Assembly (NCBI GenBank): GCA_015067435.1
Contig: SVMM01000026.1
Coordinates: 1 to 35,415 of the forward strand
DNA length: 35,415 nt
Direction of reading: 5' to 3'
Origin: Oscillospiraceae bacterium
Lineage (GTDB): Bacteria; Bacillota; Clostridia; Oscillospirales; Oscillospiraceae
Numbering within the stretch: the stretch's first letter is position 1; every line of letters begins with the position of its first letter. Below are positions 17,069 to 35,329 of the stretch, piece by piece. The notes under the pieces were generated by a model. That model searched no databases, was not told where the DNA came from, and saw only the letters and a program-made list of their open reading frames with translations. Position numbers and translations under genes: made by a program.

Positions 17069-19990
17069 TTATTCGTCGAAGCCGGCGTGGCGCGGGTCCG
17101 CCTCCTGATACGTAAACGCGCAGAAGCCGGGGCCGATGACCTGCGACGCCGTCATGGTCATGTGGAGCCCCACGTAGCCGTAGAACGTCGTCTCCGTCAC
17201 CGTTTCGCCCGCCGAGGCGCGCCGCGCCGCGTCCCACCATGCGTCGGTCTGCATGGGGAACGCGCGCTCCACGCGCTCGCCCACCAGCCGCTCGCGGTTC
17301 ATGCCGGTGAGCTTTGTGTAGTGGTCGTTGACGTAGAGGATCACCGCGTCCGTTTTGCCGTCCTCCTCCAGTACCTTGTACACCGCGTAGGCGACGGGCA
17401 GGGTCTCGTAGAGGTAGAAGACCTGCTCCATATTCTCGCGCAGGTGGCGCTGGGGGATGCGCTCGACGTCGTCGGTCATGCGGCGCATCCGCGACTGGAA
17501 CATCTGCTTTTCCAGATTCTCCGTCTCGGAATAGAGCGACGTGCCCACGGAGAGATAGGTCGTGAACGGAACGCCGTCCACCGTCTGCTGTTCGTCGGAG
17601 ATGGCGCGTATCCTGCCGGCGAGCGCCGCCGCCTCTGCGGCGTCCTCCACCTGCGCGAAGACCACGAACTCCGTGCCGGTCAGGCGACCGACCGTCGAGG
17701 TGCTGCCGCAGCAGCGCAGCAGCGCGCGCGCGACCGCGCGCAGCACGCCGTCGCCGAAGTCGTAGCCGTAGCGGCGGTTGAGGTCGCCCATCTCCTCCAT
17801 GCAGACGTCGATGCGCACAAAATCCGTCCCGCGCAGCTCGTACTCGTCGCGGAAGGCGTACATGTCCTCGTCCAGCCCGCGGCTGTTGGAAAGTCCAGTC
17901 AGCCGGTCGACGCGCGCGTGTCCGGGCTTCTCCCGCGCGCCGCCGCGGCCGCTGTCCGCCTCGTCGAAATAGCCGATCAGGCCGATGATCTCGCCGTCGG
18001 GGCTGTGGAGCGGCATCTTGCTGGCGACGATGTTGCGGTTCTCGCCGTGCACGATGCAGCTGCCGGGCTTGTTGACCGACGCGGCGCCCTCGTTGAGCAC
18101 CTCCCACTCGCAGTTGCGGTACTCGTCCGGATGGATGTGCCAGCCCATGTCCTCGTCGGTCTTGCCGATCACGTCCTCCAGCGAGGAGAAGCCGTAGAAG
18201 TCCAAAAAGCTCTGGCTGACACCGAGGAAGCGACGCTCCTTGTCCTTCCAGAAGAACTTGAGCGGGCTGTTGCGCTTGACATTCTCCCACAGGATTTCGA
18301 GGGGGATGCCGCTCTGCCCGGTTTCCCCGCCGGCGAAGCGGTAATAGGACTCCAGCTCGTGGATCTCCGCCTCCGTGTCGCGGATCAGGTTGTAGAACAC
18401 GTTGTCGCGCACGTGGATGACCGTGTGGCACTTCCACGAGTACGCGCCGTGCAGGCCGAGCGTGCGGAAATAGCCGGTGATGATCCCCTCGCCCAGCCGC
18501 TCCACGCGGTAGGCGAGCGTGTCGGCATCGGCGAAGCGCAGAAAGCGTGCGCGGTCCTCCGGGAAGACGCACTTCTCGGCGTAGAGCTGCATCGCCTCCT
18601 TTACCGGCCGCTTGGGGAACTTCTTGTCGTTCTGCGAATCGAGGTACAGCACCTCCACCGTGCCCTTTTCCAGATCGAGCAGCGATACGCGCTCGTAGAC
18701 GGAATAGAGCTGCCGCAGCCCGCCGTCCAGCGCGCCCTGCCGCGCGAGCTCCGCCGCCTCCGAGAGGTTGAGAACACAGGCGAGAATGGCGCAGCGGTCG
18801 CCGTAGCGCGCGAGGCGCTTGGTCGAGATCTCAAAATACTCCTCGTTGTAGACGAAGTTCAGGCTGCCGCCGCCCTCCTCGCGCGTCTCCAGCAGGAGGC
18901 GGCGCAGCGAGCCGCTCAGCGCGTCCATGCGCACCGCGCCGCCGCCGCCGGACGACGGGTCCGTTTCCGCCTCGAACAGGCGGTTCCAGTCCACGCCCTT
19001 TGCCGTGTCCTCGAACGAGCGGTTGGCGTAGAGGAACGACACTCCGTCGCCGCGCAGCTCCAGCACCGCGATGGGGATGCTGTTGAGCGAACGGCCCGAC
19101 TCGGGGTCCTCCTGCGCGCCGAGGACGAAGGGCGTGGCGCTGAGCACGTTCAGCTTGCCCAGATCGTCGTAATACTTGCGGTAGCGCGGGGATTCCCACT
19201 GCATGCTGCGCTCCTGCGCGAAGCGCAGCAGCTCATCAAAGGGCATGGCGCGGCCGAACAGGTGACCCTGCACCTTCTCGCAGCCGATGTTGCGCAAAAA
19301 TTCCATCTGCTCGCGCGTCTCCACGCCCTCGGTGAGCGTCTGGATGCCGATTTCCTTCGCCATATGGATGATGGCGGAGAGGATCTTCTTCGAGCGCATG
19401 CCGAAATCGCTGAGGAACTCCATGTCGATCTTCAGCTCGTCGAAGGGGTAGTCCTTGAGGACGTTGAGCGAGGAGTAGCCGCTGCCGAAGTCGTCCATCC
19501 ATACGCTGTAGCCCGCGGCGCGGAACCGTTCGACATATCCGCGCATCACGTCGTTCCCGCCGCCGAGCACGCTCTCCGTGATCTCGATGCACAGGCTGCT
19601 GCGCGGGAGCTTGTTCGCGCGCACGGATTTCTCCACTATCTCGAACACGTCGCACAGCTCGTAGTCCAGCCGCGAGAGGTTGACCGACACGGGCACAAAC
19701 GCGTCGTCCGCCATGGACGGCAGGATCTCGTCGCAGACCTTGCACACGACGTAGGTGTCCAGCTCGTGGATGCGGCGGTGCTTTTCCAGCACGCCGATAA
19801 AGCTGTTGGGCATCAGCAGGCCCATTTCCGGGTCGTTCCAGCGCGCAAGCGCCTCAAGCCCGCAGATCTGCCCGGAGGCGACGCGGATGACGGGCTGGCA
19901 GTATACGGTGATGTAACCGCGCGTCAGCGCCTCATTGAAATGATCGAGGATATACTGCTCCATCTCGGGCGATTGTGTCGTGTACGGCAT
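17069..19990 (-). CDS. EAL phosphodiesterase with PAS-like modules and degenerate GGDEF
   Basis: 973 residues, no membrane segment. The EAL domain is N-terminal (1-255), which is unusual. Its catalytic set looks complete: EAL at 46-48, N104, E139, DDFGSGYSS with D166/D167, K187, EGVE at 221-224, Q241. PAS-like regions follow (about 300-420 and 575-665, FFWKDKERRFLGVSQSF), then a GGDEF-fold domain (about 680-800) whose active site reads RLTGTEF, so cyclase activity is unlikely and it may bind GTP instead. A last PAS-like domain (about 830-965, YVNDHYTKLTGMNRERLVG) ends the protein. It should hydrolyse c-di-GMP to pGpG under control of soluble signals. GGAGG lies 7 bases before the ATG. Its promoter region is shared with the divergent diguanylate cyclase gene. 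Confidence 0.9.
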   Translation of the reverse strand: MPYTTQSPEMEQYILDHFNEALTRGYITVYCQPVIRVASGQICGLEALARWNDPEMGLLMPNSFIGVLEKHRRIHELDTYVVCKVCDEILPSMADDAFVPVSVNLSRLDYELCDVFEIVEKSVRANKLPRSSLCIEITESVLGGGNDVMRGYVERFRAAGYSVWMDDFGSGYSSLNVLKDYPFDELKIDMEFLSDFGMRSKKILSAIIHMAKEIGIQTLTEGVETREQMEFLRNIGCEKVQGHLFGRAMPFDELLRFAQERSMQWESPRYRKYYDDLGKLNVLSATPFVLGAQEDPESGRSLNSIPIAVLELRGDGVSFLYANRSFEDTAKGVDWNRLFEAETDPSSGGGGAVRMDALSGSLRRLLLETREEGGGSLNFVYNEEYFEISTKRLARYGDRCAILACVLNLSEAAELARQGALDGGLRQLYSVYERVSLLDLEKGTVEVLYLDSQNDKKFPKRPVKEAMQLYAEKCVFPEDRARFLRFADADTLAYRVERLGEGIITGYFRTLGLHGAYSWKCHTVIHVRDNVFYNLIRDTEAEIHELESYYRFAGGETGQSGIPLEILWENVKRNSPLKFFWKDKERRFLGVSQSFLDFYGFSSLEDVIGKTDEDMGWHIHPDEYRNCEWEVLNEGAASVNKPGSCIVHGENRNIVASKMPLHSPDGEIIGLIGYFDEADSGRGGAREKPGHARVDRLTGLSNSRGLDEDMYAFRDEYELRGTDFVRIDVCMEEMGDLNRRYGYDFGDGVLRAVARALLRCCGSTSTVGRLTGTEFVVFAQVEDAAEAAALAGRIRAISDEQQTVDGVPFTTYLSVGTSLYSETENLEKQMFQSRMRRMTDDVERIPQRHLRENMEQVFYLYETLPVAYAVYKVLEEDGKTDAVILYVNDHYTKLTGMNRERLVGERVERAFPMQTDAWWDAARRASAGETVTETTFYGYVGLHMTMTASQVIGPGFCAFTYQEADPRHAGFDE

Positions 19991-20210: not shown

Positions 20211-21596
20211 ATGAGCGAACCCACCGAAAAAGCCAAAACCGAACATGCGGGAAAGGAAAAGAAGCGCGGACTGTCGCTGGGCAGGTTGAACCTGATCCTG
20301 GCCACGATTGCGCTGCTTCTCACCGCACTGCTGCTGGTGGCGACCTATCGCGCGGACATCGGCTATTCCTCCATGCGCAACTCCACCGAGAACTACATCA
20401 GCTGGCAGCAGAGCGCCTACAAGATGCAGTCCGCCTCCGACTACCTGACCGATCAGATACGCAACTTCGTCGTCACGGGCAAGCGCGAGTATCTGACCAA
20501 CTACTTCAAGGAGGTCAACGTCACGCGCCGGCGCGATGCGGCGCTGGTGGAGCTGCGCGCCGCGCTGGGCGATTCGCAGGCCTACGCGGAGCTGGCGAAG
20601 GTCATGGAGAAGTCCGAGTCGCTGGCGCAGCGCGAGCTGTACGCCGCGCGGCTGATGATCGAGTCGCTGAACTACGACGTGACGACCTTCCCGCCGGAGA
20701 TCCAGGACGTTGAGCTGGAGGCGCGCGACCTCTCGATGTCCAAGGTGCGCCAGTCGGAGCGCGCGCGCAACATGGTGGTCGACGCGACCTATGTGCAGAA
20801 GAAGGCGGAGATCAACGAGGGCATCCAGAACTGCTACGCCCTGATGATCGACCAGACCGAGAGAATGCAGTCGGAGGCGCTGCGCGCGCTGGACGAGCTG
20901 ATGTACACGCAGCGCGCGCTGATTTTGGGGCTCATTTTCATCGTGCTTGCCATCGTGTCGATGACCTCGTTTCTGGTCATCAATCCGCTCGTCCGCTGCG
21001 TGCAGCACATCCGCGCGGAGCAGTCGATCCCGGAGTCGGGCTCCTACGAGTTCCGCTTCCTTGCCAAAACCTACAACCATATGTTCGAGGCGAGCCGCCA
21101 GAAGAAGGAGAAGCTCGCCTACGACGCCTCGCACGACAAGCTGACGGGGCTTTACAACCGCGCGGGCTACGATTACCTGATGGGCGACGTGGAGCTGGAA
21201 ACCTCCGCGCTGCTGCTCATCGACGTGGACAAGTTCAAGCACATCAACGACACCTACGGCCACGAGATGGGCGACCGGGTGCTCAAGAACATCGCGCATG
21301 TGCTGCGCGAGGCGTTCCGCTCGGACGACTACGTCTGCCGCATCGGCGGCGACGAGTTCGCGACGATCATGGTGCGCTCCGGCCCGCAGTTCACCGACCT
21401 GATCCGCGGGAAGATCGAGCGCGTCAACGACAAGCTCCTGCACCCGACGGACGACCTGCCGCCCATCTCCGTCAGCGTGGGCGTCGCGTTCGGCTCGGAC
21501 GATCACGACAAGAGCGGCATCGTCAAGCACGCCGACCGCGCGCTCTATCAGGTGAAGGAAAACGGGCGCTGCGGCTGCGCGTTCTACGAGGGCTGA
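20211..21596 (+). CDS. Membrane-bound diguanylate cyclase (GGDEF)
   Basis: 461 residues from the ATG at 20211. A basic start leads into TM1 (about 27-48), a helical extracytoplasmic domain of about 190 residues resembling four-helix sensor bundles, TM2 (about 235-258), a short linker and the GGDEF domain (about 300-460). The active site is GGDEF at 379-383, with D in LLIDVDKFKHIND for metal binding. An inhibitory I-site, RSDD (370-373), sits exactly five residues before GGDEF, so feedback inhibition by c-di-GMP is expected. It makes c-di-GMP from two GTP in response to an outside signal. The Shine-Dalgarno is weak (GGTAGAG). It is divergent from the EAL phosphodiesterase and followed after 21 bases by the repeat protein gene. 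Confidence 0.92.
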   Translation: MSEPTEKAKTEHAGKEKKRGLSLGRLNLILATIALLLTALLLVATYRADIGYSSMRNSTENYISWQQSAYKMQSASDYLTDQIRNFVVTGKREYLTNYFKEVNVTRRRDAALVELRAALGDSQAYAELAKVMEKSESLAQRELYAARLMIESLNYDVTTFPPEIQDVELEARDLSMSKVRQSERARNMVVDATYVQKKAEINEGIQNCYALMIDQTERMQSEALRALDELMYTQRALILGLIFIVLAIVSMTSFLVINPLVRCVQHIRAEQSIPESGSYEFRFLAKTYNHMFEASRQKKEKLAYDASHDKLTGLYNRAGYDYLMGDVELETSALLLIDVDKFKHINDTYGHEMGDRVLKNIAHVLREAFRSDDYVCRIGGDEFATIMVRSGPQFTDLIRGKIERVNDKLLHPTDDLPPISVSVGVAFGSDDHDKSGIVKHADRALYQVKENGRCGCAFYEG

Positions 21597-26130: not shown

Positions 26131-26168
26131 AAAAAAGGACCCCGCGGAACCAAGTTCTGCGGAGCCCG
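26131..26168 (-). terminator. Terminator of the kinase-feo-nucleotidase operon
   Basis: CCGCAGAAC and GTTCCGCGG pair (one G-U) on the minus strand and are followed by GGTCCTTTTTTG, about 20 bases after the nucleotidase stop. Confidence 0.8.
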
Positions 26169-26189: not shown

Positions 26190-27641
26190 TCAGTCGAGAA
26201 TGACGAGCCGGCCTTCGACGTGGGCGTCCAGCCCCGTGTGGGTGGTCAGCAGCTCTTCGAGCACGCCGAGCAGCGACGTCGCGACGACGCGCGGCTTCAT
26301 GTTGGCGGCGACCTCCTCCAGCGGCACGTTGAAAAACTCGGAAAAGCTGCCGTAGTGGAAGGATTGCAGGCAGATCAGGATCTCCTGTTCGTCGCGGATA
26401 TCCTCGCCGCGGAACTGGAATTCCTCAATCGTGTGCGTGCTCTTGCGGTAGACGATGTGGATGCCCTTGGAGAACTGGTAGAACTCCGTGTGCCCGCCCC
26501 ACGCCTCGTCGCGCAGCATGTACTGCACCATGCGCCGCAGCTGCGCGCCCGTGACCTTGAGCATCCACAGCTGGTCGTCGTAGGGCGTCGCCTCGACCAT
26601 ATCCTGATATTCGAGGATGGGACCCAGCTCGTCGCGGCGGATGCTGCCGGAGCCGAGGAGCATCAGGTCGAAGCTGCTGTCCTGCTGCAGAAGGTCGGCG
26701 TAGAGGTTGCCGAGCTCGGTCTCCTGCGTGCGCTTGGGATGCGTCAGCTTGCGGGCGAAATGCGTGACGATGCGGCGGTACTTCTCGTCGGTCTGGGACT
26801 TGTAGTCGGAGAGGAGCTGCGCCATGACCGGGTCCTCCGGCGCGGTGTCCGGCGTGATGGGGACGCACTGCCACTTCCAGCCTGCGAGCTTGTGCTTCGC
26901 CGTGTCATACACGAGGTCGAAGCGCCCGATCTGCCCGCTGCCGACGCCCGCCTGCACGATGGGCACGCCGTTCACGACCTCCGGCTCGTCCATGAAGGTG
27001 TGGGTGTGACCGCCGATGATGAGGTCCACGCCCCAGTCGGGGTTGAGCATCCCGGCGAGCTTCCGGTCGGCGTCGATGCCGATGTGCGTCAGCAGCACCA
27101 CGAGGTCGGTGTCCTTCGTGCGGTAGCTGTCGCAGATGATACCGACCTGCTTGGCGGCGTCCGCCACGTCGATGAACGAGCCGATGACCTTCTCGTTCTT
27201 TGTCGACGAGATGACCTCCTGCGTCAAAAGCGCGATGAACAGCACGCGTATCCCGTCGCGCTCGATGTTGAGGTACGGCGTGAAGAGGCGCGCGTTGTTG
27301 ACCGTGACATAGAGGTCTGCGTTGATGATGGGGAAGCGCGCGCACTTTTCGAGGAACAGCAGGTGCGCGATGCCGTAGTCGACCTCGTGGTTGCCCACCG
27401 CCGAGACGTCGGGGTCGAGCAGGTTCATCATCTCGATCGTCGAAAGCCCCAGATACTCCGAGTCAATGATCGAGCCGCGGAACATGTCGCCGGCGTTGGC
27501 GTAGATGACGTTTTTCTCCTCCGCGCGCGTCTTTTTGACGTAGCCGGACAGGCGCGAAAGGCCGCCCGTGCCGTCCTCATGCGGCAGGAAGTCGCCGTGC
27601 AGGTCGTTGGAGTGCAGAATGGTCAGGTGCTTCTCGCTCAT
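26190..27641 (-). CDS. Bifunctional metallophosphatase / 5'-nucleotidase
   Basis: 483 residues. The N-terminal calcineurin-like phosphoesterase domain has HSNDLHGD (D13, H15), AGDMFRG (D52), GNHEVDYG (N84, H85) and GGHTHTF (about 210-216), the full dinuclear metal set. The C-terminal 5'-nucleotidase domain occupies about 290-440. Relatives hydrolyse nucleoside monophosphates or nucleotide sugars; most are secreted, but this one has no signal peptide and so should act in the cytoplasm. The ATG at 27641 has GGAGG 7 bases upstream and overlaps the stop of the Cys-rich gene (ATGA), so it is coupled to the feo genes. Since these enzymes need Fe/Zn/Mn, and the first gene of the operon makes pGpG or GMP through an HD-GYP domain, either metal supply or nucleotide turnover could explain the link; both are inference. 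Confidence 0.88.
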   Translation of the reverse strand: MSEKHLTILHSNDLHGDFLPHEDGTGGLSRLSGYVKKTRAEEKNVIYANAGDMFRGSIIDSEYLGLSTIEMMNLLDPDVSAVGNHEVDYGIAHLLFLEKCARFPIINADLYVTVNNARLFTPYLNIERDGIRVLFIALLTQEVISSTKNEKVIGSFIDVADAAKQVGIICDSYRTKDTDLVVLLTHIGIDADRKLAGMLNPDWGVDLIIGGHTHTFMDEPEVVNGVPIVQAGVGSGQIGRFDLVYDTAKHKLAGWKWQCVPITPDTAPEDPVMAQLLSDYKSQTDEKYRRIVTHFARKLTHPKRTQETELGNLYADLLQQDSSFDLMLLGSGSIRRDELGPILEYQDMVEATPYDDQLWMLKVTGAQLRRMVQYMLRDEAWGGHTEFYQFSKGIHIVYRKSTHTIEEFQFRGEDIRDEQEILICLQSFHYGSFSEFFNVPLEEVAANMKPRVVATSLLGVLEELLTTHTGLDAHVEGRLVILD

Positions 27642-27838
27642 ATCGAATCCTCCGTCGTATTTTGATTGTCGGGCGGCGTTGTTTTATCCCTGCGCGGGGC
27701 GTTTGTGCACGTTCCGGCGGTACAGCCCGCGCAGCCGCAGCCGCACCCGCCGCGGCGCCTCGTTTTCACGCAGCGCACCGCCGCCCAGACGAGCGCGGCG
27801 GCAAGCAGCAGGATCAAAAGAATGTCCGCGCCGTTCAT
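27638..27838 (-). CDS. FeoB-associated Cys-rich membrane protein
   Basis: 66 residues. One membrane segment at about 5-22 (ADILLILLLAAALVWAAV), a basic turn (KTRRR) and a cluster of five Cys in GGCGCGCAGCTAGTCT; the tail is polar. It matches the small FeoB-associated proteins found after feoB in Firmicutes, thought to help ferrous iron pass or to regulate FeoB; the mechanism is unproven. Its ATG shares an A with the feoB stop (TGATG), and its own stop overlaps the nucleotidase start, so all three are translationally coupled. Confidence 0.85.
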   Translation of the reverse strand: MNGADILLILLLAAALVWAAVRCVKTRRRGGCGCGCAGCTAGTCTNAPRRDKTTPPDNQNTTEDSI

Positions 27839-30183
27839 CAGCCTGCCCCCAGCACGATCAGCGCGGCGCGCACGAGCAGCGCGGCGATCCACGCGAGCAC
27901 GCACTGCCACGCCACGACGCCCAGCGCCCATTTCGCGCCCAGCTCGCGCCGGATGGACGCGATGGCGGCGACGCAGGGCGTGTAGAGCAGGGAGAACACC
28001 AGCAGCGCCGCGGCGGAGAGCGTGTCGAGCGCGGCGCCGACGTTTTGCTCGAAGAGGATCTCCAGCGTGGACACGACGCTCTCCTTCGCCATGAAGCCGG
28101 TGATGAGCGACGTGCAGATGCGCCAGTCGCCCAGCCCCAGCGGGCGCATGACAGGCGCGATCGCGCCCGCGAGCAGGGCGAGGATGCTCTCCTGCGAGTC
28201 GGCGACCATGTTGAAGTGCGTGTCAAAGCTCTGGAGGAACCAGACCACGACCGTCGCGATCAGAATGACGGAAAACGCGCGCTGCAAAAAGTCCTTCGCC
28301 TTCTCCCACAGGAGCTGCGCGACGTTCTTCGCGCTCGGCAGGCGGTAGTTCGGCAGTTCCATGACGAAGGGCGCGGGCTCGCCGCGGAAAAATGTGTCCT
28401 TGTAGAGGAACGCGGCGAGGATGCCGAACAGGATGCCGAGCAGATACAGCCCCGTCATGATGAGCCCGCCGCGCCCGGGGAAGAACGCGCCGACGAAGAA
28501 CGCGTAGATCGGCAGCTTCGCCGTGCAGCTCATGAACGGCGTGAGCAGGATCGTCATGCGGCGGTCACGGTCGCTCGGCAGCGTGCGCGTCGCCATGACC
28601 GCGGGCACCGTGCAGCCGAAGCCGATGAGCAGCGGCACGATGCTGCGCCCCGACAGGCCGAGGCGGCGCAGCAGCTTATCCATAAAGAACGCGACGCGCG
28701 CGATGTAGCCGCTGTCCTCCAGAATGGAGAGGAAGAAAAAGAGCGTCACGATGACGGGCAGGAAGCTCAGAACGCTCCCCACGCCCGCGAAGACGCCGCT
28801 GACGATCAGGTCGTGCAGCGTTTCATTGACGCCGGCGGCGGTCAGCGCGGCGTCCGTCCATCCGGTCAGCGCGTCGATGCAGCTCTCCAGCACGCCCTGC
28901 AAAAACGCGCCCACGACATTGAACGTCAGATAGAACACCAGCGCCATGATGCCGATGAACATCGGGATGGCGGTGTACTTGCCGGTCAGCACGCGGTCGA
29001 GCCTTTCGCTGCGGGCGCGCTCGCGGCTCTCGCGCGGCTTTTTGACCGTCCCGTCGCACACGCGGCGGATGAAGGCGAAGCGCATGTCCGCGATGGCGGC
29101 GCTGCGGTCAAGCCCGCGCTCCGCCTCCATCTGCAAAACGATGTGCTCGATCATCTCCTTCTCGTTCTGGTCGAGTTCGAGCCGGGAGAGGATCAGCGGG
29201 TCGCCCTCGACGACCTTGCTCGCGGCGAAGCGCAGGGGCAGTCCCGCGGCGAGAGCGTGATCCTCGATCAGATGGCAGATCGCGTGCAGGCAGCGGTGCA
29301 CCGCGCCGCCGCAGTCGTGCTCGTCGCAGAAGTCCTGCCGCAGCGGGCGCTCCTGATAGTGCGCGACGTGGATCGCGTGGTCGACCAGCTCATCCACGCC
29401 GTAATTCTTCGCCGCCGAGATCGGCACCACCGGCACGCCCAGCGCCGCCTCCATGGCGTTGACGTCGATCGAGCCGCCGTTCTCCGTCACCTCGTCCATC
29501 ATGTTCAGCGCCACGACCGTCGGCAGGTTCATCTCCAGCAGCTGCATCGTGAGATAGAGGTTGCGCTCGATGTTCGTCGCGTCGACGATGTTGATGATCG
29601 CGCGCGGCTTTTCGTCCAGCACGAAGTTGCGCGAGACGATCTCCTCGCTTGAGTAGGGCGACATGGAGTAGATGCCCGGCAGGTCCGTCACCAGCGTGTC
29701 CGGATGCTGCTGGATGGGGCCGTCCTTGCGGTCGACGGTCACGCCGGGGAAATTGCCGACGTGCTGGTTCGAGCCGGTCAGGCGGTTGAAGAGCGTCGTC
29801 TTGCCGCAGTTCTGGTTGCCCACCAGCGCGAAGGTCAGAAGCGTGCCGTCGGGCAGGGGGTCGCCGCTGCCCTTGGGGTGGAATTTGCCGCCCTCGCCGA
29901 GGCCGGGGTGCTCCGACGGGCGCGCGGGCGCCTCCGCCGCCTCCGCCGCCTCCGCCTTAGCGAGCGGCGCCACCTCGATCTGTGCCGCGTCCGCGAGGCG
30001 GAGCGTCAGCTCGTAGCCGTGGAGCCGGTATTCGGCGGGGTCGCCCATCGGCGCGAGCTTGATGAGCGCGACCTCCGCGCCGGGGATCACCCCCATGTCC
30101 AGAAAATGCTGGCGCAGCGCGCCCTCGCCGCCCACCGCGACGACGGAGCACGCCTCGCCCGCCTTGAGTTGATCCAGAGTCAT
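27838..30183 (-). CDS. feoB: Ferrous iron transporter FeoB with fused N-terminal FeoA domain
   Basis: 781 residues. Residues 1-75 are a FeoA/SH3-like domain (LKAGEACSVVAV, LDMGVIPGAEV). After an Ala/Glu linker comes the G domain: G1 NQNCGKTT at about 124-131, TVDRKDG switch I, DLPGIYS for G3 near 168, and NMMD for G4 in place of NKxD. The membrane domain (about 350-775) carries two Gate motifs with conserved Cys: GFGCTVPAVMATR and LYTPCVAAIASIRRE. It imports Fe2+ across the cytoplasmic membrane, gated by GTP hydrolysis. The ATG at 30183 is preferred; a TTG 16 codons upstream overlaps the preceding gene. No Fur-like dyad was found in the 40-base gap to the response regulator gene, and no terminator either, so it is probably read from the kinase promoter. 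Confidence 0.95.
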   Translation of the reverse strand: MTLDQLKAGEACSVVAVGGEGALRQHFLDMGVIPGAEVALIKLAPMGDPAEYRLHGYELTLRLADAAQIEVAPLAKAEAAEAAEAPARPSEHPGLGEGGKFHPKGSGDPLPDGTLLTFALVGNQNCGKTTLFNRLTGSNQHVGNFPGVTVDRKDGPIQQHPDTLVTDLPGIYSMSPYSSEEIVSRNFVLDEKPRAIINIVDATNIERNLYLTMQLLEMNLPTVVALNMMDEVTENGGSIDVNAMEAALGVPVVPISAAKNYGVDELVDHAIHVAHYQERPLRQDFCDEHDCGGAVHRCLHAICHLIEDHALAAGLPLRFAASKVVEGDPLILSRLELDQNEKEMIEHIVLQMEAERGLDRSAAIADMRFAFIRRVCDGTVKKPRESRERARSERLDRVLTGKYTAIPMFIGIMALVFYLTFNVVGAFLQGVLESCIDALTGWTDAALTAAGVNETLHDLIVSGVFAGVGSVLSFLPVIVTLFFFLSILEDSGYIARVAFFMDKLLRRLGLSGRSIVPLLIGFGCTVPAVMATRTLPSDRDRRMTILLTPFMSCTAKLPIYAFFVGAFFPGRGGLIMTGLYLLGILFGILAAFLYKDTFFRGEPAPFVMELPNYRLPSAKNVAQLLWEKAKDFLQRAFSVILIATVVVWFLQSFDTHFNMVADSQESILALLAGAIAPVMRPLGLGDWRICTSLITGFMAKESVVSTLEILFEQNVGAALDTLSAAALLVFSLLYTPCVAAIASIRRELGAKWALGVVAWQCVLAWIAALLVRAALIVLGAG

Positions 30184-30223
30184 TGTGCCATCCCCTGCTT
30201 TTTGAGATTGTCCGATATGCGCT

Positions 30224-31003
30224 TCAGTCAAAGATCTCCTTCCACTTCTTCGTTTCGAAGAAGTGGTCGATGGAGCTCATGATGTCCTCCTTGCTCATGG
30301 ACTTGAGCAGATATCCGTCCGGCTTGAGGCGCATGACGCGCATCACGCTCTCGCGGTCGTTCTTGCCCGTGAGGAAGATGACGGGGATCTGTGCGGAGTT
30401 CTGCTCGCTGCGGATCATCTCCAGCACCTGCGGCCCAGGCGTGATGGGCATGTCGTAATCCAGCAGGATAAGGTCGGGCGTGTGCCCGGCGATGTAGGTG
30501 ATCGCCTGCATGCCGGACTTGACCACCGTCACGCGGTACTTGGTCTTGAGCCAGCCCTGCATCATCTGCAAAAACATGACGTCGTCGTCTACCAGAAGGA
30601 TGTGCTTCTCACGCTTCTGCCCATCCTCCGAGCGGATGAGGTTATACAGCGAGGCGGAGAGGTTCTTGACGTCGATGGGGCGCGCAAAGGCGTGTCCGAT
30701 CATGGTCTTGGGGATGGTCTCCTCGATCTCGTTGAGTTCCTTTTCATAGCCCACGACGCACAGGGACTTCTCCTCGCCGAAGCACAGGTCCTTCAGATAG
30801 ACCAGCAGCTCCGGTGAATTGTACACAAAGTCGCCCGCGAAGAGCAGGAACACGTCCACGCCCTCCTTCTGCGCATCGATCTGCGCGATGACCGGCTCGA
30901 CCTGCGTCGCCTGAATGTCCGCGTTCCTGAGGCTGGAGATCAGCGCGTCCGTCATCAGCGCCGCGCCGTGGTTGATGAGCAATACCTTTCCTGTGCCTGT
31001 CAT
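30224..31003 (-). CDS. Double receiver response regulator (pseudo-REC plus REC)
   Basis: 259 residues, no output domain. The first 125 residues are receiver-like but the usual phospho-acceptor place reads LFAGD, so it is probably a pseudo-receiver. The second receiver (about 133-255) has LLVDDD (139-141), Asp182 in LLDYDMP and a Lys in GYLLKS. It overlaps the end of the hybrid kinase by 4 bases (ATGA), with GGAGG 7 bases before its ATG, so it is coupled and likely the phosphorylation partner of that kinase's HPt domain. As a stand-alone receiver it should act by protein contact. The target is unknown; the next gene is feoB. Confidence 0.88.
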   Translation of the reverse strand: MTGTGKVLLINHGAALMTDALISSLRNADIQATQVEPVIAQIDAQKEGVDVFLLFAGDFVYNSPELLVYLKDLCFGEEKSLCVVGYEKELNEIEETIPKTMIGHAFARPIDVKNLSASLYNLIRSEDGQKREKHILLVDDDVMFLQMMQGWLKTKYRVTVVKSGMQAITYIAGHTPDLILLDYDMPITPGPQVLEMIRSEQNSAQIPVIFLTGKNDRESVMRVMRLKPDGYLLKSMSKEDIMSSIDHFFETKKWKEIFD

Positions 31004-34000
31004 TGCGATACCTCCGATTGTGTTGATGAAAGGATCGGACCGACCTGATCCCAGTCAAAGCTGTCCACCGCCCGCCGCACGCGCTCGACACGCGCGCGCT
31101 CGTCCTCCGGCAGGCGGAAGCCGTCCAGATAACCCAGAACATACGCCGCGCCGTCGGAGTCGAAGCCGGCCGCGAACTCGCGCAGGCTGTCGTACGCCTC
31201 GCGCAGCTTTTCGGGCGTGATCTCCGGCTTGCCGTCCGCGTCCGCGGCATCCCCGGCGGGGGCGTAGAGCGGCGCGAGCGCCGCGCCGAGTGCGCGGAAG
31301 CGAGTCAGCAGGCCGCCAAGCTCCGCGCCCAGCGTCTGCGTGTCGCCCGCCTTGCCCGCCATCTCCAGCTTTTCGGCGAGCGCACCCAGCTCCTCCGCGC
31401 CGACGGCGCGGGACGTGCTCTTGAGCGCGTGTACCTTCACCGTCGTGTTCGCGGTGTCGCCCGCGCGCCAGAAGCCCTCGATCTCGTCCGCGGCGGCAGC
31501 GGCGTTCTTCCCGTAGACCGTCAGCGTTTCGAGGTAGGTTTCCTCCGTGCCGCAGTGGCGCAGGCCGGAGTCGATGTCCAGCTCGCCGATGCCGCGCAGC
31601 CAGTCGGGCAGCTCGACGTCCTGCGGTTCCGGTTCCGCCGCGGCGGGCGCGGACGCGTCCGGCACGGGTGCGTCCGGCACGGGCGGCGCGTCCTCCGTCG
31701 ACCACAGCCTGTCGCTGTTCTTCCACACGCGGATGTCCGCCGTGCGCTCGTTCATGCGGTAGTCCGTGTCCTCGTCGATCATCTGGAGGAACACCGCGGC
31801 GATCTCCGGGTCGAACTGCGTGCCGCTGCACCGGACGATCTCCGCGCGCACGACGCTCTGGGCCTTGGGCGTGGAGTAGGTGCGCGTCGAGGTCATGGCG
31901 TCGTAGGCGTCCGCAAGCCCGATGATGCGCGCCGGCTCCGGAATGTCGCGGCCCTTGAGGCCGTCGGGATAGCCGGTGCCGTCGAAGCGCTCGTGGTGCG
32001 AGCGCGCGCCGTAGGCCAGCTCCGGCATCTCGGAGATCTGGCTCAAAATCTCGCTGCCGATCACGGTGTGGCGCTGGATGAGAGCGAATTCCTCATCCGT
32101 CAGGCGGGTGGTCTTGTTGATGATCTCCTCGCTCACGCCGATCTTGCCCACGTCGTGCAGCAGTCCCATTTCGTAAATATGCACCTGTTCGCGCGCGCTC
32201 TTGCCCATGCGCCGCGCGATCTCCGCGCTGTACGCCGCCACGCGTTCGGAGTGGCCGTTGGTGTAGTGGTCCTTGGCGTCGACGGTCTTTGACAGTGCGA
32301 GCATCATCTCCTTGGTCAGGCGCTGCGCGCGGCGGCTCTGCCGCCGAACCTCGCTTTGCAGGCTGCGCTGGAGCCGGTCGAGCGCGATGACGCGCCGCGT
32401 GCGCTGCAACAGCACCTCCGGTACGAAGGGCTTGCGCACGAAGTCCGCCGCGCCGCGGCGGAAGCAGGTGATCTCGGTCTCCTCGTCGCCGTCGCCCGTG
32501 AGGAAGATCACGGGGATGCTGCCCGTCGCGCTGTCGCGCCGCAGGGCGGCGAGCACGTCGAAGCCGGTCATGGCGCCGAGGTTGATGTCCAGCAGGATGA
32601 GGTCGGGGCGCAGCCGCTGCGCCTCCTGTGCAGCCGCCGCGCCGTCCTGGCAGGCTTCCACGCGGCAGATCTTACCGAGGATGCTCCCCGCGAGGGACGT
32701 GATGAGCGCGTCGTCGTCCACAATAAGCACCAGCGGCTTTTCGGCGGACACGGGCGCCGCGGGTGCCGCGGGCGCGGGCGCCTCCGGCTCGTGGACCTTC
32801 TCCGGCGGGAGGCAGCGAATGAGCAGTTCCTCCAGCGCCGCGCCGTCCACGGGCTTGGGGAGGTAGTCGTCGAAGCCCACCTCAAGATACCGCTCGCGCG
32901 AGCCCGTGACCGCGTTGGCGGTCAGCGCGACGCAGACGCTCTCCGCTGTGCCGGGCAGCTCGCGCAGGCGCCGCAGCGTCTCGACGCCGTCCATACCCGG
33001 CATCATGTGGTCGATGAAGATCACGTCGTAGCGCTCGCCCGCCGCCTTTTGAAGCGCCTCCGGCCCGGATTCCGCCGTGTCCACGCGCACCTGCGTCTTC
33101 TTGAGCAGACCCTGCACGACGGTCAGGTTCACGGGCGTGTCGTCCACCACCAGCACGCGCGCCTCCGGCGCGTGGAAGCGCTCGCGGTACGCCTTGCGCT
33201 GCGCGGCGGCGGTCTCAAAGCGGCCGGAGAATTTGCCGATGGGCGTCCAGCGCACGACCGGCTGCTCCACCGCGAAGGAGAAGGTCGAGCCTTCGCCGTA
33301 GACGCTCTCCACCTCCAGTTCGCTGCCCATGAGACCGAGGAGCCGGCGCGTGATGCTCATGCCCAGCCCCGTGCCCTCGATAGCGCGGTTGCGCGCCTCC
33401 TCGATGCGGGCGAAGGGGGCGAAGAGGGTATTCATGTTCTCGTGCTTGATGCCGATGCCCGTGTCGACGACGCGGAAGCGCAGGGATATCTTGTCGTCGG
33501 AGAGCTTTTCAAAGCCGACGTCCAGCGTCACCGAGCCCTTTTCCGTATACTTCACGGCGTTTGTCAGCAGGTTCAGCGCGCACTGGCGGATGCGGATCTC
33601 GTCGCCGAGAAGCAGGTCGGGAATGTTCTCGTCCACCTGCACGGCGAAGTGCAGGCCCTTTTTCTCCGCGCGCTCGCGCACCATGTTCACAAGATCGTTG
33701 ACGACGGAGCTGAGGTCGTACTGCGCGGGGATGATCTCCAGCTTGCCCTCCTCGACCTTGGAGAAGTCCAGAATGTCGTTGACGAGCGAGAGCAGCGTCT
33801 TGCCCGCGCTCTGGATGTCCTCGGCGTAGGAGCGCGTCACCTTTTCGGCGCTCTCGCGCAGGATCATTTCGTTCATGCCGAGCACCGCGTTGATCGGCGT
33901 GCGAATCTCGTGGGACATGCTGGAGAGGAAGTTGGATTTCGCCTTGCTCGCCGCGTTGGCGCGCTCCGTCATCTCCAGAAGGTCGGACGAGGTGGCGTTG

Positions 34001-35253
34001 AGGAACGCCATGATGCGGTATTCCAGCGGCACAACGTAGTTTGAGCGCTCCGCGTCCTCGCGCAGGGCGTATTTGTCGAGCTGCGCCTCCCGCCGCTCCG
34101 GCTCGCCCTCGCGGATGCCGAAGGCGACCAGCGCGCTGTTGAGCTCGCCGCCCTGCCCATGGAAGCGGAACAGCTCGGAGCTGCCGTGCTGGAACGCCGT
34201 ATCGGACGCGACCTGCGAATAGTAGTTGATCTCATGCCGCTCCTGCTCTTTTAAGAAGATCAGGCGGTTCATGCAGATGAACAGCAGCATCCCCTGCGGC
34301 GCGAAAGCCAGACACTCTTCGGCGTCATCGTGGATCTGCGAGAGGATGCGCGTTTGCAGGCCGTAGGAGAAGCGGAACTGCTCGCCGGCGCGCATCGCCG
34401 CGCCGAAGTGAAGGCGCCCCTCCTCGTCGCACAGCAGCGGGACGCGCCCGACGGTCATGCCGTCGCGGTCGACGGCAAAGGGAAACTCGCAGATGTTGGG
34501 AACCTGGATCAGCGAGGGGATGCTCAGACCCAGATACTTCCGGTAGATATCCAGCGCGCTCTGCCCGTCGATCTCCGTGACGCAGAAGTCCCCGTCCGTG
34601 GCGGTGACGGTCATTGTCCGGCCCACGGGCGTCCAGCCGAAGTTTACGGTCGTGCGCACGGAGAGCCCGCTCCCGTGGAACAGCACGGCGAGGAGCGTGT
34701 CCTCGTAGACGCCGTCGCTGTCGAACACGAAGCACAGCGGGCGCTGCGGCTCCGCGGGATCGAGGCTCGCCGTCCCGCCGAAGATGGGGATATCCGCAGC
34801 GCCGCGATCCGCCTCGGCGAGCACCGTGTCCAGATTCCGCCCGAAAGCGGCGGCGAGCGTCAGCACACCCTTGCAGTTCTCCTGCGCGAGGATATCGCGG
34901 TTGAGCCGCCTGCCCAGCAGCGTGTCCGTATCGCCCTGTCCGGCGAGGCGGCGCAGCGTGAAGGCGGGATGCTCAAAGAAAAAGAAGCTGAACACCGCGC
35001 GCGGCGAATCATCCTGCTGCCCGAACGCGCCCAGCGTGTCGAAGTGCGTGACGCCGGCGACCTCCGCCTTGGGCAGCGCCGCGCACACCGCCTGCACGTG
35101 CCGCGCGAGCGCGTCCCTGTCCCACAGCTGGGCGAAGACGACCGCCAGCACCTGTGATGCGCCGCGGTACGCGTCCAGCGCGGCGACCTCGGAGAGCGCC
35201 CGTTCCAGCGAGCCGTCCGTAAAGTCGGTGATGTGATAGGTTTTCTGTATCAT
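31000..35253 (-). CDS. Hybrid histidine kinase: FIST-HisKA-HATPase-REC-REC-HD-GYP-HPt
   Basis: 1417 residues, no membrane segment. FIST_N and FIST_C (about 1-385; GWTPVGRTMTVT, IDGQSALDIYRKYLG) are a cytoplasmic small-ligand sensor. HisKA has FLSSMSHEIRTPINAVLG with His448; the ATPase domain (about 555-665) has NLLTNAVKY, DTGIGI and GTGLGMSI. REC1 (about 698-815) has Asp748 and REC2 (about 838-960) Asp889. The HD-GYP domain (about 990-1165) keeps LLHDVGKIG (H1033, D1034), HH, and HHERFDGTGYPDGLKG, so it should hydrolyse c-di-GMP. HPt (about 1225-1325) has His1275 in VHALKS. A helical tail follows. This puts sensing, phosphorelay and c-di-GMP hydrolysis in one chain. The ATG at 35253 has GGGGG upstream. 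It heads a five-gene run with the response regulator, FeoAB, a Cys-rich protein and a nucleotidase. Confidence 0.92.
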   Translation of the reverse strand: MIQKTYHITDFTDGSLERALSEVAALDAYRGASQVLAVVFAQLWDRDALARHVQAVCAALPKAEVAGVTHFDTLGAFGQQDDSPRAVFSFFFFEHPAFTLRRLAGQGDTDTLLGRRLNRDILAQENCKGVLTLAAAFGRNLDTVLAEADRGAADIPIFGGTASLDPAEPQRPLCFVFDSDGVYEDTLLAVLFHGSGLSVRTTVNFGWTPVGRTMTVTATDGDFCVTEIDGQSALDIYRKYLGLSIPSLIQVPNICEFPFAVDRDGMTVGRVPLLCDEEGRLHFGAAMRAGEQFRFSYGLQTRILSQIHDDAEECLAFAPQGMLLFICMNRLIFLKEQERHEINYYSQVASDTAFQHGSSELFRFHGQGGELNSALVAFGIREGEPERREAQLDKYALREDAERSNYVVPLEYRIMAFLNATSSDLLEMTERANAASKAKSNFLSSMSHEIRTPINAVLGMNEMILRESAEKVTRSYAEDIQSAGKTLLSLVNDILDFSKVEEGKLEIIPAQYDLSSVVNDLVNMVRERAEKKGLHFAVQVDENIPDLLLGDEIRIRQCALNLLTNAVKYTEKGSVTLDVGFEKLSDDKISLRFRVVDTGIGIKHENMNTLFAPFARIEEARNRAIEGTGLGMSITRRLLGLMGSELEVESVYGEGSTFSFAVEQPVVRWTPIGKFSGRFETAAAQRKAYRERFHAPEARVLVVDDTPVNLTVVQGLLKKTQVRVDTAESGPEALQKAAGERYDVIFIDHMMPGMDGVETLRRLRELPGTAESVCVALTANAVTGSRERYLEVGFDDYLPKPVDGAALEELLIRCLPPEKVHEPEAPAPAAPAAPVSAEKPLVLIVDDDALITSLAGSILGKICRVEACQDGAAAAQEAQRLRPDLILLDINLGAMTGFDVLAALRRDSATGSIPVIFLTGDGDEETEITCFRRGAADFVRKPFVPEVLLQRTRRVIALDRLQRSLQSEVRRQSRRAQRLTKEMMLALSKTVDAKDHYTNGHSERVAAYSAEIARRMGKSAREQVHIYEMGLLHDVGKIGVSEEIINKTTRLTDEEFALIQRHTVIGSEILSQISEMPELAYGARSHHERFDGTGYPDGLKGRDIPEPARIIGLADAYDAMTSTRTYSTPKAQSVVRAEIVRCSGTQFDPEIAAVFLQMIDEDTDYRMNERTADIRVWKNSDRLWSTEDAPPVPDAPVPDASAPAAAEPEPQDVELPDWLRGIGELDIDSGLRHCGTEETYLETLTVYGKNAAAAADEIEGFWRAGDTANTTVKVHALKSTSRAVGAEELGALAEKLEMAGKAGDTQTLGAELGGLLTRFRALGAALAPLYAPAGDAADADGKPEITPEKLREAYDSLREFAAGFDSDGAAYVLGYLDGFRLPEDERARVERVRRAVDSFDWDQVGPILSSTQSEVSQ

Positions 35254-35299: not shown

Positions 35300-35329
35300 T
35301 ATATAGCACAGGCGCGCCGCGCTTGTCAA
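35300..35329 (-). promoter_or_regulatory. Promoter of the kinase-feo operon
   Basis: A perfect -35 TTGACA (35329-35324), 18-base spacer and -10 TATATA (35305-35300), about 47 bases before the kinase ATG. Confidence 0.7.

Follow-up and report, generated by a model that had tools for sequence, protein, structure and literature searches.

The stretch of DNA analysed here (the window) is one entire contig of 35,415 bases from the draft genome of an uncultured, gut-type Oscillospiraceae bacterium. It carries five co-directional genes, all on the minus strand according to the open reading frame (ORF) list and the sequence: a hybrid histidine kinase with a FIST sensor and an HD-GYP domain, a response regulator, a feoAB fusion, a small FeoB-associated gene and a nucleotidase (Table 1). 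An earlier annotation made from the letters alone (the sequence-only reading) had taken them for a module joining signalling to iron import. In relatives this combination of five genes did not turn up, so that the cluster appears to be a local assembly of known components and not a new system.

Table 1. Features of the five-gene cluster and stand-alone FIST-like proteins of the genus. Coordinates are positions in the window unless prefixed by a genome (G, with G000 the source genome), contig (C) or locus (L) code. REC, receiver domain; aa, amino acids; nt, nucleotides.
Feature	Position	Strand	Basis
Possible promoter, TTGACA - 18 nt - TATATA	35300..35329	-	sequence; score 9.7, p 0.08 against shuffles
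FIST - HisKA/HATPase - REC - REC - HD-GYP - Hpt hybrid kinase, 1417 aa	31000..35253	-	Pfam, NCBIfam
FIST_N + FIST_C sensor region	34204..35148	-	PF08495 1.9e-22, PF10442 1e-12; no NCBIfam match at 1e-3
HD-GYP domain	31801..32292	-	Pfam; alignment to 4mcw and 5z7c
Hpt domain	31294..31509	-	PF01627, 24.8 bits against a cut-off of 24.6
Regulator, 259 aa, REC in C-terminal half	30224..31003	-	Pfam
Gap before feoAB, 40 nt	30184..30223	-	terminator-site listing; promoter score
feoAB fusion, 781 aa, ferrous iron importer	27838..30183	-	PF04023, PF02421, PF07670, PF07664; TIGR00437 above cut-off
FeoB-associated Cys-rich membrane protein, 66 aa	27638..27838	-	PF12669 above cut-off
Metallophosphatase / 5'-nucleotidase, 483 aa	26190..27641	-	PF00149 + PF02872; nearest solved structure 3ivd
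Terminator hairpin + T run	26131..26167	-	fold; alignment with ftsZ terminator of genus mates
Stand-alone FIST-like proteins	G000:C2 (L168:9140-13823), G250:C158, G258:C15, G258:C4, G255:C28, G255:C154		

The layout described by the sequence-only reading agrees with the ORFs and the sequence. The kinase and regulator genes overlap by 4 nt, feoAB and the 66-aa gene by 1 nt, and the 66-aa gene and the nucleotidase by 4 nt, while no terminator-like site is listed in the 40-nt gap. The terminator behind the last gene is a strong hairpin (-28.2 kcal/mol, z -2.24; 6 of 200 shuffles folded equally well). The near-consensus promoter placed ahead of the kinase is present, but it is modest: it reaches p 0.08 on the softer score, and it is absent from the consensus-scan list because the scan accepts a second hexamer only if it ends in T. 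As the window is a whole contig, the kinase starts only 162 nt from the contig end. At the gathering threshold, Rfam finds nothing in the cluster, its matches in the window being two tRNAs at 820-973. For a Fur/DtxR box upstream of feoAB (about 260 nt), the best matches had 9 and 10 mismatches to the two 19-mers used, scored without a chance control.

One transcription unit for the five genes is plausible, because neither a terminator-like site nor a promoter above shuffles lies in or near the gap (best score there p 0.26). To put this in context, promoters were scored in 123 upstream stretches of at least 120 nt, nearly all preceding feoAB and one preceding the kinase, with simple, unfitted weights and 60 shuffles per stretch; shorter stretches were dropped, and G246 and G259 are represented twice. 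A promoter with p<=0.05, at a distance within 150 nt, was present in 72 of the 123, where about six were expected. In G247, for instance, it reads TTGACG-17-TATAAT. The feoAB of the window lacks this promoter usual among relatives, and read-through from the kinase promoter is the most likely way in which it would be transcribed.

Pfam recovered every domain that the sequence-only reading had named in the kinase, the regulator, FeoAB and the nucleotidase. In the kinase it finds FIST_N, FIST_C, HisKA, HATPase_c, Response_reg (two stretches) and HD_5, together with an Hpt match barely above its cut-off. That FIST binds small ligands, as had been assumed, is borne out by the excerpts of PMC12570481 and PMC8846402, which treat it as a ligand-binding sensor domain. 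According to these two sources, FIST proteins bind heme and are reported to sense nitric oxide (NO), and the kinases under their control signal to regulators that act on cyclic di-GMP (c-di-GMP); PMC8846402 calls the evidence for FIST binding suggestive. The FIST region of this kinase has no match to the NosP family (NF041558) or to any other NCBIfam model at 1e-3, and no relative among solved structures at E 1. Two stand-alone FIST proteins of the genus match NF041558 far under its cut-off (59.7 and 50.6 of 450 bits). An attempt to place a heme ligand from conservation was dropped, as no invariant His is present across eight aligned FIST regions.

The catalytic site of the HD-GYP domain looks intact. 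Aligned with 4mcw and 5z7c, it keeps the HD and HHExxDGxGYP motifs and the metal ligands, with the exception of the third-metal Glu, which is replaced by Tyr. Its best solved match, 5z7c, was deposited as a 3'3'-cGAMP-specific phosphodiesterase. Elsewhere in the window, a few kb from spo0A, lie an EAL-PAS-GGDEF protein (17069-19963) and a divergently oriented GGDEF protein (20211-21596), which makes it likely that the cell signals through cyclic dinucleotides.

The kinase, which has a receiver-only partner, belongs to a family of large hybrid kinases that exists in multiple copies and swaps sensors. Its C-terminus has 23 matches in the source genome. The genus set comprises 18 genomes including the source, and among the 17 genus mates, several of them incomplete, the matches number 18 in G246, 12 in G247, 14 in G250, 8 in G255, 8 in G256, 11 in G258 and one each in G251 and G259, with none in nine genus genomes. 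In the genus mates the best near-full-length match to the FIST region has 34% identity, and a 98-residue remnant at 39% identity occurs in G071. At E 1e-20 the FIST region was found in 3 of 200 drawn family genomes, source included, among the matches listed; the whole kinase was matched in its own genome only, again among the matches listed (245 order genomes, two candidates scored per genome). On a tree of 52 kinase cores the FIST region appears at three separate places. Near family members in six places there are separately encoded proteins of about 394-400 aa, judged similar by eye (loci L168, L181, L187, L188, L189 and L190); they are FIST by Pfam in G000:C2 and G258:C15, by alignment only in G258:C4, and by eye in the others. 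A co-directional gene follows within 200 nt in 22 of 48 family 3' ends with a visible next gene, a sample of loci picked for holding family members, some overlapping, with the window itself excluded.

Further traces of the family were seen. Paralogous hybrid kinase arrays with differing sensors occur on G000:C19, C13, C26 and others (L128, L131, L166, L170), and short FIST and regulator remnants at G071:C40:52916-53660 apparently represent a decayed cassette.

The regulator, whose family is also multi-copy, has an N-terminal half without Pfam match followed by Response_reg, and Pfam found no DNA-binding domain in its 259 aa. Direct control of feoAB transcription by the kinase-regulator pair is therefore unlikely.

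In the importer itself, FeoA, FeoB_N, Gate and FeoB_C were all found, and the TIGR00437 score is 571.2 bits against a cut-off of 315.65. Two further FeoB_C matches on contig C7 of the source genome indicate that it is probably not the sole importer. A second feoA-feoB locus lies there (G000:C7:165700-169304, L195), with a small gene upstream that appears DtxR/MntR-like by eye. Including the source, 8 of the 18 genus genomes carry a feoAB fusion, the other copies having 81-88% identity; one is cut by a contig end and one is split across two contigs. Such fusions are common, and their flanks differ between loci. Together with its FeoB-associated gene, feoAB is an ordinary unit of gut Clostridia. 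That gene was found at E 1e-3 in 10 of 80 feoAB loci of named genomes kept by the scan (a set from which the source genome may be excluded), a count that is probably too low, given how short and variable the gene is.

A conserved five-gene operon was rejected in the loci examined, because the order was found only in the source genome and in none of the 17 genus mates. Neither the FIST sensor nor the nucleotidase was found near any of the 80 named feoAB loci, some of which have short flanks. The upstream side of feoAB is visible in six of seven genus mates, the G259 contig ending 149 nt above the gene, and G255 alone of these six has a family kinase before feoAB, with a seven-transmembrane (7TM) sensor and no HD-GYP domain. 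The sequence-only reading had proposed searching other genomes for the FIST kinase next to feoAB and had held that a neighbourhood confined to this strain would speak against it; in the loci examined, the order occurs only here. Joint expression of signalling and iron import is thus retained as a plausible shared transcript, but not as a conserved module.

Two observations concern the DNA ahead of other feo genes. Inverted repeats GTTAGC...GCTAAC, seen by eye upstream of feoAB or feoA in L091, L084 and L047, are possible metal-regulator sites. A long inverted repeat, also seen by eye, lies between the G255 kinase and feoAB (L117:3825-3921; L078).

The nucleotidase end of the cluster is, judging from the alignments, a rearrangement breakpoint. 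The protein has Metallophos and 5_nucleotid_C domains (Pfam) and is closest, among solved nucleotidases, to 3ivd (4.6e-32). It shows no signal peptide on visual inspection and scores below the curated equivalog cut-off (UshA, 125.4 of 600 bits). None of the six genus mates in which the downstream side of feoAB is visible (the G246 contig ends inside feoB) showed the gene there, and none of the 80 named loci, some with short flanks, had it beside feoAB at E 1e-3, which argues against the nucleotidase as a member of a module. An 84% identical relative lies at a contig start in G250 with different genes behind it, and there are paralogues with 53-56% identity that do not neighbour feoAB. The gene on the other side of the terminator, spoIVB, was found in 16 of the 18 genus genomes. 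In all 11 mates fetched it is preceded by ftsZ, named by eye, and a G248 contig holds only the ftsZ tail. In the source genome the nucleotidase takes the place ahead of spoIVB, and ftsZ is found on contig C34 with an unrelated convergent gene behind it. Upstream of spoIVB, homology to six aligned mates extends as far as the hairpin by the nucleotidase stop. This hairpin resembles the ftsZ terminator of the mates, and the ftsZ on C34 keeps a similar one, suggesting a break in or close to a hairpin of this type.

Nucleotidase paralogues were also observed in tandem pairs (54-56% identity), beside a kinase array at G258:C22:1072-4081, about 5 kb from a kinase at G000:C10:5576-8530, and elsewhere (G247:C63:9472-12427). 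A reading of the nucleotidase as a partner of HD-GYP was set aside; further paralogues are located at other sites.

Taken together, we favor, with a probability of roughly 60%, a local composite: a multi-copy kinase and its partner, the kinase resembling a one-chain NosP-NosK-NosR pathway, set beside an ordinary feoAB unit, which would be expressed by read-through, and a nucleotidase that has paralogues elsewhere. The purpose-built pathway of the sequence-only reading, in which FIST sensing, c-di-GMP breakdown, iron import and clearing of GMP would serve one function, is improbable. Its tight junctions, the possible co-transcription, the HD-GYP site that is intact by alignment and the GGDEF proteins in the window would fit it, but the set was not found in relatives, a breakpoint lies behind the nucleotidase, the regulator is receiver-only, and nucleotidase paralogues reside away from feoAB. 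More improbable still is an assembly artefact that misjoined the cluster to spoIVB, or the kinase pair to feoAB. The contig does end just above the kinase, and the many similar kinase copies could have misled an assembler; however, the contig continues for about 5 kb beyond the junction between regulator and feoAB, and neither side of the broken ftsZ-spoIVB junction is at a contig end (C34 and C6).

The local composite is challenged by what precedes feoAB in other genomes. Of the 123 stretches, 51 are also without a scored promoter, so that the absence of a promoter here is not rare. Moreover, G255 has another member of this kinase family, a different paralogue, 95 nt ahead of its feoAB. Orthology of this kinase with that of the window was rejected, since the tree needs two changes and none of 200 bootstrap trees joins them. 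A six-frame test for same-strand signal ORFs ending within 500 nt before feoAB, at loci with at least 1 kb upstream, found 4 among 73 named loci (L286, L303, L341, L343), where 0.77 were expected (Poisson P 0.008). The excess of upstream signal genes together with the G255 paralogue suggests that the adjacency is not wholly accidental. The order sample gave 1 of 37, which is G255 and was known beforehand; in the pooled set, in which one locus is present twice (L388 = L278), 5 of 110 were found against 0.95 expected (P 0.003). Based on gene calls, 4 of 42 co-directional upstream neighbors within 500 nt were signal genes, compared with 22 of 747 other genes (p 0.044); no signal gene was among the 29 co-directional neighbors downstream. 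The gene calls miss the G255 kinase in DNA of high guanine-plus-cytosine content (L386), which is why the six-frame version was run. Rows L268, L274 and L336 (no feoAB gene called) and L387 (no feoA found) were dropped, the L387 locus (G247) entering the promoter scoring through L114.

These upstream genes are diverse. In Lachnospiraceae RUI509 (L343:3420-10343), a GGDEF response regulator and a hybrid kinase with a PDC-like sensor run in one direction into feoAB, ending 17 nt before it. At L317:2618-10343, a Reg_prop kinase is followed by a BMP-type lipoprotein ending 6 nt before feoAB, and L332:2852-10346 has a Reg_prop-HD-GYP protein, a BMP-type lipoprotein and feoAB in the same order; in both, the Reg_prop sensor is one gene further up and stands outside the signal-gene counts. 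A hybrid kinase lies 99 nt before feoAB in L286, the kinase of a two-component pair 150 nt in L303, and a methyl-accepting chemotaxis protein 217 nt in L341. It is possible, though rather unlikely, that leading feoAB with a sensor serves a function and arose convergently in several gut Clostridia, being selected because it couples iron import to expression of the sensor or brings sensing close to iron entry, with FIST here reading heme or NO. All of these loci and G255 carry sensor genes before feoAB, the kinases of G000 and G255 are different paralogues, and no promoter was scored before feoAB in G000, G255 (p 0.30), L343 (0.20), L317 (0.80), L286 (0.18) and L303 (0.51). Against this, L341, L332 and L327 keep a scored promoter, the statistics are weak and partly post hoc (the Fisher test on promoters gave p 0.04, from small numbers and a grouping made afterwards), the single hit of the order sample was known beforehand, the gene-call version reaches only p 0.044, and the differing sensors and outputs imply no common signal. 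As the sensors are of different kinds, they make a lead, not a system. Slightly more doubtful is the broader claim that kinases, HD-GYP proteins and a chemoreceptor independently captured feoAB repeatedly in gut Clostridia, several times without a feoAB promoter of its own, which would place iron import under joint expression with a sensor, the case here being a NosP-NosK-NosR-like single chain.

Under the local composite, the FIST region would bind a small ligand, our best guess being heme or NO, and binding would alter autophosphorylation of the kinase. Phosphate could then move via REC and Hpt, the HD-GYP domain may hydrolyse a cyclic dinucleotide, and the partner regulator would serve as an additional phosphate acceptor. 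Iron import would be co-expressed with the sensor through read-through, without being its direct regulatory target. If read-through is true, a sensor that degrades cyclic dinucleotides and the import of ferrous iron are set by the same promoter, which is a simple coupling. Should a larger survey confirm that sensors recur before feoAB, this would show how Feo is regulated in anaerobes without the usual promoter there. If it does not, the locus warns that rearrangement can produce tight overlaps and a shared terminator, which alone are no proof of a conserved system.

The sequence-only reading knew of no described system with this set of genes. No description of a FIST-kinase-feoAB set was found in the open-licence papers examined; however, FIST, kinase and HD-GYP are already linked by NosP-NosK-NosR (PMC12570481), to which we return below. 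Among iron-related systems, BqsRS/CarRS has a histidine kinase pathway and ferrous iron in common with the locus. According to the excerpts of PMC12666569, its kinase is a membrane protein that has an extracytoplasmic Fe2+ site and works with a canonical regulator, in place of the FIST sensor and receiver-only partner seen here; a DNA-binding regulator output of the BqsRS kind is lacking here, with only Response_reg recognised in 259 aa. IsmP-ImcA of Pseudomonas aeruginosa links iron with c-di-GMP turnover through a CHASE4 iron sensor that controls a diguanylate cyclase, and a feo operon goes unmentioned in the excerpts of PMC10904736. The usual FeoAB unit with its FeoB-associated Cys-rich protein (PF12669, TIGR00437) shows the same fused importer and small partner, whereas here the kinase pair stands ahead of it and the nucleotidase behind.

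The closest parallels concern the kinase. Vibrio cholerae CdpA, a FIST-EAL protein inhibited by heme, likewise combines FIST with a cyclic-dinucleotide phosphodiesterase in one chain (PMC8846402). It has EAL where the kinase here has HD-GYP, and the excerpts of that source describe it without kinase or receiver. In NosP-NosK-NosR and NosP-NahK-NarR, one pathway brings together FIST, a histidine kinase and an output domain for c-di-GMP, which in NosR is HD-GYP, as may be the case here (PMC12570481, PMC8846402). In contrast to the separate sensor, kinase and regulator genes of NosP-NosK-NosR, the window encodes a single chain of 1417 aa with additional REC and Hpt domains, the FIST region lacks a match to the NosP model, and feoAB follows the kinase pair. 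The NosR of Burkholderia pseudomallei is described as having a degenerate HD-GYP (PMC12570481), whereas the one described here is intact by alignment. The kinase thus looks, by analogy, like a variant of the NosP-NosK-NosR kind, fused into one chain.

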